Assembly: GCF_900129985.1 (NCBI RefSeq)
Contig: NZ_FQXN01000002.1
Coordinates: 62,001 to 126,000 of the forward strand
Source of the DNA: Thermosipho atlanticus DSM 15807
Lineage (GTDB): Bacteria; Thermotogota; Thermotogae; Thermotogales; Fervidobacteriaceae
Direction of reading: 5' to 3'
DNA: 64,000 bases
A program made the translations under genes and the position numbers. Positions 29,580-35,311 of this stretch are shown one piece after another (position 1 is the first letter of the stretch; every line of letters starts with the position of its first letter). The notes beneath the pieces were generated by a model. The model ran no database searches. It worked only from the letters and a program-made list of their open reading frames with translations, and was not told the DNA's origin.

Positions 29580-29605
29580 AAATCCACCTCAGAAGAGGTG
29601 GATTT
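29580..29605. terminator. bidirectional terminator between the CHR gene and the SLBB gene
   Basis: AAATCCACCTC (29580-29590), loop AGAA, GAGGTGGATTT (29595-29605): a perfect 11-bp stem between two convergent genes. T-runs are short, A-run on the left serves the minus strand. Confidence 0.85.
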
Positions 29606-29612
29606 ATATTAT

Positions 29613-32387
29613 TTATTGCCCTGATAAGTTATTTAGTAGCAATATAGAATTATTTACGAGATTTAGCATACTAGAGATTGTTGGAATCCAATCTATAGCA
29701 GTCCTGAGTGGATCGTTAGGTACAAATATAATATCACCAGGTTCAACTATAGGATTTTCCGTAATATTTCCTCCTTTTACAGCTCCACTGAGATTCACCT
29801 TTATTGCATTTCCATTTATTCCATCCTTGTAGAGGAATATAGAAGATGGTGCGGCATTTTGAGTGAAAAATCCTGCAGAAATAATAGCTTCAAGTACTGT
29901 TGTACCTTCATGAAGCTGTACTATACCAGGATTTTTGACTTCTCCGAGAATATAAGCAAAGTTTTGTGGTGTATCTACAACTTTTATTATGTCACCAGGT
30001 TTGACATTAAACGCAAGGGTATCTTCAACTTTTGAAATATCTATAATTTTTTCTTCAGAGTTTCTTAAAAGCTTTACGTATTTATAATTTTTATCAATTC
30101 CAAGCTTTGTGAGTATTTCATACAAAGTTACCTTATCTTTGTCAAGATAAATTACTTCTGGTTTTCCTAAAGCATCCATTGCATAAACGTAATTTTCAGT
30201 ATCTAAATCAAAAATTATAGTACTTCCATTTTTTAATTGTAGATTTTTTGTTTCATCCCATGTGAATGAAACTTTTGTAGAATCTTCAATGATAGTCACA
30301 GTTTTGCTGATTCCTTTAGGAATTCCATTAATCTTAGCCAAAAGGGTTTTAAAATCAAATGCTTCATTATTTTTAAATTGGACTATAGTATTGGGCATAT
30401 TTTTGCCAAATACGTAAACATAATTTGGTTGTCTTTCAGTTACAAATACAAAGTCATTGTCTTGAAGAATGGTGTTTTCTTCACCGAGATAAACTTTTTC
30501 AGCATCGAATTCTTTGATTATTTTTCCATTTCTCAAGATATAAACTTTGTCAGAAGAGTAATACAAATCAGGACCAATTATGAGACCTCCAAGTTTTCCA
30601 AACAAGGTTTTAAGATCAGGAGTTTCGTAATATTCAAATGCAACTCTACCAGTTTGTTTTATATACCCCATAGCAGTTACATAAATTGTCTTTTTTAATT
30701 TCACATTTAAAATAGAACCTTTTTCTATTATTATATTCTCTTTTACATTCAATGTTTTTCCATTTACGGAAATTGTTTCAATTTGTCTATAGTCACTCAA
30801 TCCAGCTTTAGCAAGGATCCTTTGAAGTGTAATCGGTTCGTTATAATCAAATACGATGTATTTTGCGACATCCCCTGTTAAATACACAGCATTTGTTTCT
30901 GCAGTTTTTATAACAATAGTGTCAAATTTTTCAAGGGTGATATCGGGATTTTGATAAATAAGTGTATTTATATCGTAAGTCTCTATAGCTTTGTTTCTTA
31001 CAATTAAAACTTTTTCAATTTCTTTAGGTTCTTTTATTCCTAATCTTTTAATTAAATAAGGCAAAGTTTTGGGTTCATTATACGAAAGTTTTATACTTCC
31101 ACCGTTTGGGCCAACTACATTAACAACAAACGGTTCGTATACAATTTGAACAATATCTCCAGACTTTAGATTATAATCTTCATTTCCGAAAATTACACTC
31201 TTAATATCTATTACAAAATCGTTGTTGATAACTACTTTTCCATCGTGTTCAACTTCATCGTCCAAGCCAATTTTTGCAAGAAGAACCTTCAAAGTTTTAA
31301 CCTCATCAGGGGTAAATTCAATTTTTCCCTTTATCTTTGAATTTCCAAGCACATAAACATAAAAATCAGGGTATTTTACTATTTTTACAATAGAGCCTGA
31401 TTGTAAATAAATTTTTTCTTTGGTATTTAAAACTTCAGGACTGTATTGTAATTCTTTTCCATTTGGCAGTGAAACAATAATTTTTTCTATAAATTTTCTT
31501 TCATTTTCTGAAATACCACCACTTTTAGCAATGAGAGTATTTAAGGTTAGTTCTTCATTTACACCAAATGTTTTTACCCCAGGATTTTTTACAAAGCCAA
31601 TTATATACGCATATTTTTCCTTTCGTTTTGGAATATAAATTCTAATACCCGGTGAAAGAGGGTAATCTTTGGTACCTGAAATAACATCTTCCAGATTTAT
31701 TGAATTAACGACACCGTTTTGATAAATTTTGGTATTTTCAATCTCAGCATATTCTTTGTCAATGGGGCCAAGTTTTAAAAGCAATGTTGATAAAGTTAAT
31801 CCTGGCACATATGTGGTTTCTAATGTATATGCTCCAAGTATTTTTATAGTTTTTTCAGAGGATAAAGGCGGTAAATAAATAATATCTCCTTCTTTTAATA
31901 CGATATCGTTGTCAAATTTTCCTTGGTAGAAATAGGGGAGAAGGTTTACCGTAATAGTTGTATTGTCCCTTCTTATTTGTATATTTTCAAAATCAACTCC
32001 CGAATCTTTTGAAATACTCAAAAAAGAGAAAAGTTTTGTAATAGTCATGTCAGGGTACGTAGATATATCAAAAATTTTGTTAATAGCACCTTGGAGGAAA
32101 ACAAGCATAGGAGCGTATTCAACAACGTATACAGTAATTACTGGTTGTTTAACAAATTTTTCAATATATGGTCTCAACATTTCTGCAACTTCATCTGGAG
32201 TTTTTCCTTGAACTTTTATATTTCCAGCGTAAGGATAGGGAATAGAACCATCAAGAGCGACTTTTACTGTTCTGGATAAATTTGGATAGTTGAATACTTC
32301 AATTGAAATAGTATCTCCAACTCTTATTGTGTATGAAAAAATTATAAGGGCAAAGAACAACATGAAAATAATTGTAAATTTTCTCAT
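29613..32387 (-). CDS. polysaccharide export protein with ten tandem SLBB domains
   Basis: A 924-residue exported protein. An in-frame start at 32402 is rejected because GGGAGGT precedes ATG 32387. The signal peptide is MRKFTIIFMLFFALIIFSYT. Next is one Poly_export domain (IRVGDTISIEVFNYPNLSRT, VALDGSIPYPYAGNIKVQG). By eye, ten SLBB repeats follow, each about 75-90 residues, opening with a Y-x-x-G strand and ending in a G-D-I-I strand: for example AYIIGFVKNPGVKTFGVNEE, YVYVLGNSKIKGKIEFTPDE, AVYLTGDVAKYIVFDYNEP, FAYILGEVKNPGIVQLHEGT with PGDIIFVPND. Wza-type exporters usually carry two. There is no lipobox cysteine and no clear outer-membrane helix; the last 40 residues are mildly hydrophobic. 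It is divergent from the BY-kinase gene. Confidence 0.9.
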   Translation of the reverse strand: MRKFTIIFMLFFALIIFSYTIRVGDTISIEVFNYPNLSRTVKVALDGSIPYPYAGNIKVQGKTPDEVAEMLRPYIEKFVKQPVITVYVVEYAPMLVFLQGAINKIFDISTYPDMTITKLFSFLSISKDSGVDFENIQIRRDNTTITVNLLPYFYQGKFDNDIVLKEGDIIYLPPLSSEKTIKILGAYTLETTYVPGLTLSTLLLKLGPIDKEYAEIENTKIYQNGVVNSINLEDVISGTKDYPLSPGIRIYIPKRKEKYAYIIGFVKNPGVKTFGVNEELTLNTLIAKSGGISENERKFIEKIIVSLPNGKELQYSPEVLNTKEKIYLQSGSIVKIVKYPDFYVYVLGNSKIKGKIEFTPDEVKTLKVLLAKIGLDDEVEHDGKVVINNDFVIDIKSVIFGNEDYNLKSGDIVQIVYEPFVVNVVGPNGGSIKLSYNEPKTLPYLIKRLGIKEPKEIEKVLIVRNKAIETYDINTLIYQNPDITLEKFDTIVIKTAETNAVYLTGDVAKYIVFDYNEPITLQRILAKAGLSDYRQIETISVNGKTLNVKENIIIEKGSILNVKLKKTIYVTAMGYIKQTGRVAFEYYETPDLKTLFGKLGGLIIGPDLYYSSDKVYILRNGKIIKEFDAEKVYLGEENTILQDNDFVFVTERQPNYVYVFGKNMPNTIVQFKNNEAFDFKTLLAKINGIPKGISKTVTIIEDSTKVSFTWDETKNLQLKNGSTIIFDLDTENYVYAMDALGKPEVIYLDKDKVTLYEILTKLGIDKNYKYVKLLRNSEEKIIDISKVEDTLAFNVKPGDIIKVVDTPQNFAYILGEVKNPGIVQLHEGTTVLEAIISAGFFTQNAAPSSIFLYKDGINGNAIKVNLSGAVKGGNITENPIVEPGDIIFVPNDPLRTAIDWIPTISSMLNLVNNSILLLNNLSGQ

Positions 32388-32431
32388 CGGATAACCTCCC
32401 ATATGTGGTTTTCAATTTTAATCTGTTATTT

Positions 32432-32467
32432 ATTATATCACAACGTTGTGATATAATGTGATATAAT
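32432..32467. promoter_or_regulatory. 26-bp perfect palindrome overlapping divergent -10 boxes
   Basis: 32432-32457 is a perfect palindrome centred between 32444 and 32445 (half-site AACGTT at the centre, TATCACAA arm). Its two ends are TATAAT on each strand, so it contains candidate -10 boxes facing both ways. On the right, the ten-base word GTGATATAAT occurs twice in tandem (32448-32457, 32458-32467). It sits in the 123-base gap between the SLBB and BY-kinase genes and is a strong candidate operator controlling both. Confidence 0.75.
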
Positions 32468-32510: not shown

Positions 32511-34676
32511 ATGGATCCAGAAATCATCCAAGACGAACTTACACTTGAAGATATCATCCATATTTTCAAAAAACGATTTTGGGTTTTTATGACAACATTA
32601 ATTTTAACGGTAGTTGCTGTGGTAGTGTACCTTATATATGCAACGCCAATATATGAAGCTAGTGCAACTTTAAAAATTGAACCGCAGTCTGCTGGTTCAA
32701 TTACCGATTTATTTACTTCACAAGTTACGCCTGGAAGGCCTGATATTTCTACAGAGGTTGAACTTATAAAAAGTCGAAGAAATATTGAAACAGTTGTTGA
32801 TGATCTTGATTTAGTATCATATTTTAGAAATAAAACTCAAAATCCAGAAATTACTAAAAATGATGTAATAGGAATTGTTAGTAATATGATATCAATTTCC
32901 CCCGTGAAAGATACAAAAATAGTGAAAATTTCTGTACAAAGTGATGATCCTATGCTTGCTAGTAATATAGCAAATAGGCTTGCAGAAGTATACAACGAGT
33001 TATTAAAAAGTCTTTCAAAGAACGAGTATACTGTTAAGAGGCACTTTATAGAACAACAGATTCCAATTGTTGAGGAAGAGTTGAAAAAAGCAGAAGATAA
33101 TTTGAGAAAATTTAAAGAAGAAAACAACGTATTTGTCCTTGACGAAGAAGCAAAGAATCTTTTGTCACTTATGCTAAATTACGATAGTCAAGTAAATTCG
33201 TATATGCTTCAACTTCAAGAAAACAAAGCAACCATTGCTGCACTCAACGAGATGTTGAAAAAGGTGGATGAAAAGATAATTTCTTCTGAAACAATTACTA
33301 CAAATCCAATAGTTAGCCAATTAAAATCAAAGCTTGTTGAATATAGAATAGAACTTGCTGGTCTAACACAAACTTATTCAGAAAGTGATCCAAAGGTTTT
33401 GGAAATAAAAGAAAAAATTAGCGAGACAGAAAAGTTATTGAAAGAAGAAGTTGCAAAGATTGTTACTTCTCAAGTTCAAACAATCAATCCTGCTTATCAA
33501 GAATTGTATACACAATTGATAGAAGCTCAGTACAAAGGGGAAGTGTATGATTCAATAATTAAATCACTTAATAAATTAAGAGATACTTACCAGGAAAAGT
33601 TATCAAAGTTACCATTACTTGAGCAAAAATTACTAGAGCTTAATAGGGACATAAAGGTAAAAGAGAATTTATATACACTTTTACTTGAAAAACTTGAAGA
33701 AACAAGAATAGCAGAGGCAGGTGTAGTAGGAACAGCAAGCATTATAGACAAAGCAATTGTACCTGACAAACCGGTTAAACCAAACAAGAAATTAACTCTT
33801 GCTATTGGCGGTGTTCTCGGTATATTCCTTGGTATATTATTTGTTTTTCTCGTTGAATATGCAGATAAAAGTATAAAGGATGAAGAAGAGTTAAAAAGAA
33901 TTGCAAAAGGGAAAGTAATTCTTGGTAGAATTCCAAGATTTGAGCTGAAGAAAGATTTAAAAAATCCTGAGTTAATAGTTTTAAATAGTCCAACATCTCC
34001 ACAAGCAGAATCGCTAAAGCTTGTATCAACTAACATTAATTATTCGGTTACACCTGAACCAAAGGTAATAGCTATTAGTAGTTCTGGACCAGGTGAGGGG
34101 AAGACGATAACTGCAGCTAATCTTGCAATTTCATATGCTCAAAATGGTGTTAACACCCTTTTATTGGATCTTGATATGAGAAAACCTAGAGTTGAAAAAG
34201 TACTTGGTTTAAAGCGTTTTAATATGGGAGTTGTGAATCACATCTTAAAAGATGTCCCAATTGAAAAGATTACCCAAAATTACATGGAGAATTTAGATAT
34301 CATACCTGTTGGACCTCTTCCCCCAAACCCAACTGTTGTTTTAACATCCAAAAAATTTAAGGAGTTAATAAATACACTAAAGGAAAAATATGAAAGGATA
34401 GTAATAGATCTTCCACCAATTCTTGCCGCTGCTGATGCATTGATAGTTTCCAAACACACAGATGGTATGGTATTAGTTGTAAGAGCTGGTACAACTCAAA
34501 AACATTCTTTGAGAATTGCAATTGAAAATATTGAAACATCTGGAGCAAATCTTCTAGGAATAATAATTAATGATATTAATGAAAAGTCATCTAATTATTA
34601 TTACTATTATTACTATTATTATTATGATGAAGAAGGAGGAAAAAAGAAGAGAAGGTTTAAAAGGCATAAAAAATAA
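32511..34676 (+). CDS. Wzz-type chain-length regulator fused to BY tyrosine kinase
   Basis: A 721-residue inner-membrane protein combining polysaccharide co-polymerase and kinase. It starts MDPEIIQDELTLEDIIHIFK behind GGGGGAG. The first membrane helix is near residues 25-45, a long extracytoplasmic coiled-coil region runs to about 420 (KDLEEK-like heptads and a typical P-rich VPDKPVKPNKKL before the second helix), and the second helix is near 425-450. The kinase has Walker A SSSGPGEGKTITAANLA (about 523-531), Walker A' LLLDLDMRKPRVEKVLGL and Walker B IVIDLPPI. The C-terminus carries ten consecutive tyrosines (34596-34625), the autophosphorylation cluster, then DEEGG and a basic tail. The phosphatase gene follows at 15 bases. 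Confidence 0.95.
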   Translation: MDPEIIQDELTLEDIIHIFKKRFWVFMTTLILTVVAVVVYLIYATPIYEASATLKIEPQSAGSITDLFTSQVTPGRPDISTEVELIKSRRNIETVVDDLDLVSYFRNKTQNPEITKNDVIGIVSNMISISPVKDTKIVKISVQSDDPMLASNIANRLAEVYNELLKSLSKNEYTVKRHFIEQQIPIVEEELKKAEDNLRKFKEENNVFVLDEEAKNLLSLMLNYDSQVNSYMLQLQENKATIAALNEMLKKVDEKIISSETITTNPIVSQLKSKLVEYRIELAGLTQTYSESDPKVLEIKEKISETEKLLKEEVAKIVTSQVQTINPAYQELYTQLIEAQYKGEVYDSIIKSLNKLRDTYQEKLSKLPLLEQKLLELNRDIKVKENLYTLLLEKLEETRIAEAGVVGTASIIDKAIVPDKPVKPNKKLTLAIGGVLGIFLGILFVFLVEYADKSIKDEEELKRIAKGKVILGRIPRFELKKDLKNPELIVLNSPTSPQAESLKLVSTNINYSVTPEPKVIAISSSGPGEGKTITAANLAISYAQNGVNTLLLDLDMRKPRVEKVLGLKRFNMGVVNHILKDVPIEKITQNYMENLDIIPVGPLPPNPTVVLTSKKFKELINTLKEKYERIVIDLPPILAAADALIVSKHTDGMVLVVRAGTTQKHSLRIAIENIETSGANLLGIIINDINEKSSNYYYYYYYYYYDEEGGKKKRRFKRHKK

Positions 34677-34690
34677 AAGTAGGTGAAATT

Positions 34691-35311
34691 ATGTTAGATA
34701 TGCATACACATATTTTACCTGCAGTAGATGATGGAATAAAAACTGAAGAAGAAGCATTTTTGGTACTTGAGGAGTATAAAAAAAAAGGTATAAATATTGT
34801 AGTATTTACCCCTCATGTTAATCACTATAGTGTGAAAACGAGTATAGAAAAGATTTCTGATACGTATAAAAGATTAAAGCCAAAGTTTGATGAGATAGGT
34901 GTAAAAACATTTCTTGGAAGTGAAATTTACTTAACTGAAAAAGTTGAAAAATTTATACCAATTAATGATTATTTTTTGCTTTTAGAACTTCCTAGAGATG
35001 TTTATCCCATGTACTTACTTGACAAGATTTTTGAATTTCAATTGGAAGGTTATGAAATAATTTTAGCCCACGTTGAAAGATATAAATGGCTTAAAGATAA
35101 TGAACTATTAATTGATAGATTAAAAACAATGAATGTTTATTTTCAGATGAATTTTGAAGCAATTGAAAGTGATAACTATTTTCTTAAAAATTCATTGATT
35201 GATTTTCTTTCAACTGATTGTCATGGCAATTTGTCTGAGATAGATTTTTCATTTTTTGAAAAATACAAAGACATATTTGAAAAAAGCATGGAAATCTTAA
35301 ATTTAACATAA
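34691..35311 (+). CDS. PHP-type protein tyrosine phosphatase (CpsB/YwqE family)
   Basis: A 206-residue metal-dependent phosphatase. The PHP motifs are MLDMHTHILPAVDDG at the N-terminus, VFTPHVNHY, GSEIYLTEKVEKFIP, ILAHVERYKWL and DFLSTDCHGNL, which provide the histidines and acidic residues of the metal cluster. CpsB/YwqE enzymes dephosphorylate the tyrosine cluster of the cognate BY-kinase and so control polymer chain length. Here the kinase gene is directly upstream in the same transcript, and a terminator follows. Substrate assignment rests on family and position. Confidence 0.94.
   Translation: MLDMHTHILPAVDDGIKTEEEAFLVLEEYKKKGINIVVFTPHVNHYSVKTSIEKISDTYKRLKPKFDEIGVKTFLGSEIYLTEKVEKFIPINDYFLLLELPRDVYPMYLLDKIFEFQLEGYEIILAHVERYKWLKDNELLIDRLKTMNVYFQMNFEAIESDNYFLKNSLIDFLSTDCHGNLSEIDFSFFEKYKDIFEKSMEILNLT

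Follow-up and report, generated by a model that had tools for sequence, protein, structure and literature searches.

Two points are debated about outer-membrane polysaccharide export (OPX) proteins: whether they make up an unbroken conduit that reaches Wzc, and what determines their length. These questions are raised by a gene on the minus strand (29613..32387) of the window, that is, the whole stretch of 64,000 nucleotides of Thermosipho atlanticus DSM 15807 DNA that was analysed. It encodes a protein of 924 aa in which one Poly_export domain is followed by ten SLBB repeats, whereas Wza, the OPX protein of E. coli group 1 capsule and colanic acid (PDB 2j58, 9r60; Wza-Wzc complex 9r64), has two. 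Why should an exporter of this type carry ten? The answer proposed here, to which we assign a probability of roughly 0.7, is that the protein is a Wza-like OPX of a Wzx/Wzy-type system that has been extended to bridge a wide periplasm propped by rods, with its length matched to the gap.

Domain layout and repeats of the OPX protein

The start of the gene at ATG 32387 is favoured over an alternative ATG at 32402 on the same strand, which would give an ORF of 929 aa (29613-32402), because a Shine-Dalgarno-like GGGAGG lies directly 5' of the former. Residue numbers of domains, repeats and helix refer to the 929-aa version. The protein is composed of a signal peptide (32337..32387, minus strand, starting MRKFTIIFMLFFALIIF), a Poly_export domain, ten SLBBs and a C-terminal helix. 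The Poly_export domain (32112..32336, minus strand; Pfam PF02563, residues 23-93, E 2.8e-18, 66 bits against a cut-off of 28) is equivalent to D1 of Wza and is the predicted contact with Wzc. It starts straight after the signal peptide, with no N-terminal stretch before it. This is the single Poly_export gene in the genome, and a search of the plasmid collection returned no match spanning most of the protein.

Pfam, with SLBB_2 in four stretches (8.8e-23) and SLBB (3e-19) as its other matches, picks up about half of the repeats on its own, and a family-wide repeat HMM delimited exactly 10 contiguous SLBBs at residues 98-899, practically without linkers. Ten segments starting at residues 98, 183, 263, 346, 424, 504, 572, 660, 737 and 814 were cut for scoring, and each was scored with an HMM built from the other nine repeat classes of 26 family members. 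These leave-one-out scores ranged from 22.8 to 48.2 bits; with 500 shuffles per segment, the top shuffle score was between 7.8 and 13.7. All the repeats lie on the minus strand, and from the N-terminus onwards their scores (each against its best shuffle) were 26.2 bits against 8.3 for repeat 1 (31857..32111), 45.0 against 9.3 for repeat 2 (31617..31856), 48.2 against 11.5 for repeat 3 (31368..31616), 45.6 against 11.8 for repeat 4 (31134..31367) and 36.6 against 10.2 for repeat 5 (30894..31133). They were followed by repeat 6 (30690..30893; 32.1 against 13.7), repeat 7 (30426..30689; 41.7 against 9.5), repeat 8 (30195..30425; 36.2 against 13.0), repeat 9 (29964..30194; 29.1 against 10.6) and repeat 10 (29712..29963; 22.8 against 7.8), which is the most Pfam-like copy (SLBB_2 at 816-894). 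Chance repetition is ruled out by these scores.

Regarding the fold, AlphaFold2 was run on a single chain with a 14-row alignment and gave a model with a mean pLDDT of 78.9. In this model the repeats are beta-grasp domains, most of them with two strands, a helix, two strands, usually a short helix and a final strand; the placement of the domains relative to each other is unreliable (pTM 0.37). Wza structures were the top Foldseek matches of the model (9r60, E 5e-16; 2j58, E 9e-16), and a family profile covering Poly_export and SLBB1-2 aligns to Wza with E 1e-38.

The C-terminus carries a helix of 25 residues (29625..29699, minus strand; 902-926 by DSSP on the model), and the last 25-35 residues are predicted to be helical. 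Its hydrophobic moment is 0.29 against 0.15 +- 0.08 for shuffles (p 0.04), with a family median of 0.30, and the motif (F/W)xxALxWxPxI is conserved among close relatives. The sequence of this region diverges in distant members, one of which (L070) has a longer hydrophilic tail. It has been proposed that OPX proteins insert into the outer membrane through C-terminal amphipathic helices of this kind (PMC11845990), which makes this one a candidate Wza-type membrane segment.

The first-pass annotation of this DNA had described about ten SLBB-like repeats after one Poly_export domain, had suggested structure prediction as a check of the SLBB fold, and had noted the lack of both a lipobox and an obvious outer-membrane helix. 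The repeat number is now fixed at ten and the single-chain model bears out the fold. The signal region contains no cysteine and therefore no lipobox, as had been stated, but the remark on the helix has to be withdrawn in view of the conserved amphipathic helix predicted at 902-926.

Concerning its classification, the protein shows what defines the OPX family, namely an N-terminal Poly_export domain, at least one SLBB (here ten) and an adjoining PCP/Wzc gene. It is likely a member of class 1 (Wza-like), although this is unproved because the Pfam Wza_C model (PF18412) is absent from its matches. Domain order and the Wzc tyrosine autokinase as companion are shared with Wza, which is also the top structural and profile match. 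Differences from Wza, apart from the number of SLBBs, are the missing lipoprotein signal, the missing stretch before Poly_export and the C-terminal segment that Pfam does not detect as Wza_C. The absence of a lipoprotein (Sec/SPII) signal is compatible with class 1 because only about 78% of class 1 OPX proteins carry one (PMC9603273). On the other hand, KpsD (class 2B) is likewise a long periplasmic OPX with a Sec/SPI signal and a C-terminal helix, but it has a GfcC module (PF06251), and none was found among the Pfam matches of the Thermosipho protein up to E 10. Foldseek also gave a weak match to GfcC (3p42, E 4e-4), which is accounted for by SLBB domains. A class 2 or KpsD-like assignment was rejected.

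Length and repeat number across the phylum

A Poly_export match was found in 83 of 103 Thermotogota genomes, nearly always one per genome. Full-length frames range from about 720 to 1734 aa, shorter ones being due to contig edges or frameshifts, and the number of SLBBs, where counted, goes from 8 to 20. The long protein is thus not an oddity of one species. Most OPX proteins in 14 genomes from outside the Thermotogota measure 200-640 aa; in the literature, class medians of 256-824 aa (PMC9603273) and an SLBB number of 1-8 (PMC1796856) are given. Class 1 is described as Poly_export-SLBB(1-14)-Wza_C (Saidi et al. 2022, PMC9603273), with the same domain order as here. Ten SLBBs are inside this range, and 16-20 appear to be without precedent. 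Compared with the published class 1 proteins, the long form is present in nearly every Thermotogota genome, usually as the sole OPX, reaches 20 SLBBs in our counts, and its length tracks an independent spacer of the envelope. We found no report in the literature on OPX length in Thermotogota or on a link to the toga.

G008 has two OPX genes (L042 and L043) with 14 SLBBs each, and each has its own PCP alongside. The OPX protein of G028 (L034) is 51% identical to that of the window, and the value for its congeners G026 and G032 is about 30%; it is possible that the L034 exporter was acquired by horizontal transfer.

Over the range from 9 to 20 SLBBs, the neighbouring PCP keeps a periplasmic part of constant length (median 392 aa, IQR 386-398). 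The extension is therefore confined to the OPX protein, and one shared by the PCP is ruled out. Within the window's family, repeats 1-2 and 5-10 correspond one to one and both ends are conserved; the gains and losses in close relatives sit at one internal site around repeats 3-4: repeat 3 is missing in the 9-repeat relatives G002 and G007, and Fervidobacterium has additional R3/R4-like copies at this site of expansion. Moreover, adjacent SLBB repeats are 94-100% identical in protein in genus g20 (L166 of G087 and L167 of G089), and at the DNA level they share 96-100% identity in G087, whose genome is complete. The duplication in g20 is recent because its tandem copies are near-identical. It should be noted that SLBB numbers may be undercounted in draft assemblies from short reads, which may collapse identical repeats; the 12 repeats of G050, for example, seem few in view of its Omp-alpha.

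Repeat number and the Omp-alpha rod

In Omp-alpha, a coiled-coil rod connects an SLH domain to a membrane segment at the C-terminus. The T. maritima rod has 316 residues and reportedly keeps the toga at a distance of about 50 nm from the cytoplasmic membrane, ballooned parts excepted (PMC3387000). The length of this coiled coil was used as a proxy for the width of the periplasm. Relatives were searched with the orthologue of the window's genome (L177, which adjoins tyrS), and rod length was taken as the residues from the end of the SLH domain to the terminal hydrophobic segment. The sample comprised 58 genomes in which the OPX gene is complete; two of them (G096 and G085) were set to 9 repeats, as the HMM had left a repeat-sized gap. 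Across the phylum the rod measures about 36 to 70 nm, and in the window's genome it has 279 residues (about 41 nm).

SLBB number correlates with rod length (r=0.87, p 4e-19, n=58), with a slope of 20.1 +- 1.5 rod residues per SLBB, equivalent to 29.8 Å at a rise of 1.485 Å per residue. Genus means (n=28) give r=0.91 and 32 Å per SLBB, family-centred values r=0.86 and 33 Å, and genus-centred values r=0.67 (p 2e-6) and 24 Å. Between the congeners G001 (10 SLBBs) and G002 (9), a difference of one SLBB goes with one of 23 rod residues (34 Å). In the solved Wza-Wzc complex, Wza measures 140 Å and Wzc 220 Å (PMC12881504). The slope comes close to a single Wza ring, whose height we estimate at about 33 Å by taking the 140-Å translocon as three rings plus an assumed helix barrel of about 40 Å.

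Counting SLBBs in homologues against periplasm width had been suggested in the first-pass annotation, which held that many SLBBs would suit an enlarged periplasm. With the rod as proxy, the comparison sustains this idea in that repeat number tracks rod length, both in the raw data and by independent contrasts (see below). The relevant width, however, is the lateral spacing of the toga, for which Omp-alpha is responsible, and not that of the ballooned poles, so this part of the argument was amended.

These data also bear on the idea of an ordinary multi-SLBB class 1 OPX whose repeats tune polymer avidity, unrelated to envelope width. Such an idea would agree with the up to 14 SLBBs already listed and with a survey of Gram-negative bacteria, in which Thermotogota are not mentioned and OPX length was not linked to periplasm thickness (PMC9603273). 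Nevertheless, every full-length Thermotogota protein is long while the PCP stays constant, and the number of SLBBs follows the rod, which makes this explanation extremely improbable.

Another explanation would be an indirect one, in which lineage, temperature or cell size makes SLBB number and Omp-alpha length drift alike, without the OPX protein reaching across the gap. Descent can indeed inflate raw correlations, as DnaG length also correlates with SLBB number in the raw data (r=0.37, p=0.004), and the recent near-identical tandem repeats would fit neutral slippage. Independent contrasts were run on an RpoD+DnaG tree and retained the Omp-alpha signal in the 58 genomes (r=0.63, p 1e-7; none of 20000 contrast permutations was as high), whereas the control lengths gave -0.17 (RpoD) and 0.09 (DnaG). 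When Fervidobacterium and its sister genus are left out, the contrasts rise to r=0.79; they stay significant without family f1, f9 or f11. Descent as the sole cause is countered by these contrasts, subsets and control genes. Furthermore, genome size is uncorrelated with either trait, the centred correlations persist within families and genera, and the slope has the right physical size. Inside f2, f3 or f11 alone there is no significant trend, and f1 alone gives a contrast r of 0.25, which is not significant; deviations of 45-67 aa from the regression line are seen for Fervidobacterium, G055 and the 20-repeat genus. Taken together, we consider indirect co-variation very improbable.

The choice of paralogue in Fervidobacterium and its sister genus deserves mention. 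This group has Omp-alpha-like SLH proteins of about 1000 aa (L334-L339; L334 is a 980-aa frame on the + strand). Their coiled coil spans about 900 residues (about 135 nm), and they would possibly be a spacer for the distended toga. They would fall far off the regression line and were left out as another size class, and the normal 440-585-aa paralogues of the same group were used instead. This exclusion does not drive the result, because dropping those genera altogether strengthens the correlation. TamB (PF04357), tried as a third periplasm-spanning yardstick, had no match in any of the 103 Thermotogota genomes, and the Deinococcota, cyanobacterial and proteobacterial controls were positive. 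Finally, in many f9 genomes the OPX and Omp-alpha genes are about 10-13 kb apart (in G091, C2:665726 and C2:675237), the two proteins being unrelated.

A possible conduit and its genetic setting

Returning to the Wza-like exporter matched to the gap, the following arrangement can be proposed. The Poly_export domain would dock onto Wzc on the inner side, from where the ten SLBBs would stack outward as Wza-like and probably octameric rings of about 33 Å each, the C-terminal helices would line a pore in the outer membrane, and the polymer would pass through the channel. At this ring height the window's protein would span about 37 nm, against the rod of about 41 nm. In evolutionary terms, selection may favour the number of rings that fills the distance set by Omp-alpha, and when the Omp-alpha spacing changes, repeats would be duplicated in tandem or lost at the one internal site. 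Both the stacking of the SLBB rings and a sealed channel are our inference.

The same length correlation would be expected if the SLBBs were a flexible chain of glycan-binding beads, or a tether, spanning the periplasm without a sealed tube and still matched in length. The SLBB was named as a soluble-ligand-binding domain and proposed to bind sugars in exporters (PMC1796856), and the uncertain inter-domain placement in the model (pTM 0.37) would leave room for such a chain. Nonetheless, the repeats follow each other without linkers, Poly_export and the first two SLBBs align to the ring-forming Wza, and about 30 Å per SLBB is near the height of a Wza ring, whereas in a slack chain the scaling could be looser. 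A chain of beads is therefore unlikely.

We lean slightly towards a stronger form of the ring model, in which a single protein would provide the exopolysaccharide conduit from Wzc to the toga, its rings would evolve with Omp-alpha at one ring of about 30 Å per roughly 20 coiled-coil residues, and the sequence would predict the width of the periplasm. Thermotogota offer for this a natural length series, from 8 to 20 SLBBs with a constant Wzc, and with the Omp-alpha yardstick encoded by the genomes themselves. Since SLBB number follows Omp-alpha, a conduit that spans the periplasm gains support, and exporter length would seem to evolve together with envelope spacing, through tandem gain and loss of a ring-sized module; sequence could thereby become a predictor of toga spacing. 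The length of Omp-alpha (OmpA1) and of E. coli Lpp likewise corresponds to, or determines, how far apart the envelope layers are (PMC3387000, PMC5736177, PMC8824477), but these are unrelated coiled-coil proteins, whereas the ruler-like property of the present exporter is its repeat number. The Poly_export-SLBB architecture was already known; the novelty, which the comparison supports, is a Wza-type exporter with a repeat number matched to envelope width.

The surroundings of the gene, judged by the genes described below, fit a Wzx/Wzy-type exopolysaccharide system. Divergent from the OPX gene lies a gene for a Wzc-like polysaccharide co-polymerase (PCP) and tyrosine autokinase (32511..34676, plus strand; Pfam Wzz, GNVR and AAA_31; NCBIfam Wzc and eps_fam), and in most relatives checked a PCP gene is close to the OPX gene. 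It is followed by a CpsB/CapC-type PHP tyrosine phosphatase (34691..35311, plus strand; Pfam CpsB_CapC, E 4e-31), which we take to be the partner of the autokinase, and one gene for an initiating sugar-phosphate transferase is found elsewhere in the genome. Between the divergent OPX and wzc genes there is a perfect 24-bp palindrome, TTATATCACAACGTTGTGATATAA (32433..32456), which is a candidate operator; it is the sole copy in this genome, allowing up to 3 mismatches, and an exact search for its central 18 bases in the other fetched loci gave none. A bidirectional terminator-like hairpin (29580..29605) lies 3' of the OPX gene. Lastly, the C-terminus of the Wzc-like kinase consists of ten tyrosines in a row (SSNYYYYYYYYYYDEEGGKKK), an extreme form of a tyrosine-rich tail.
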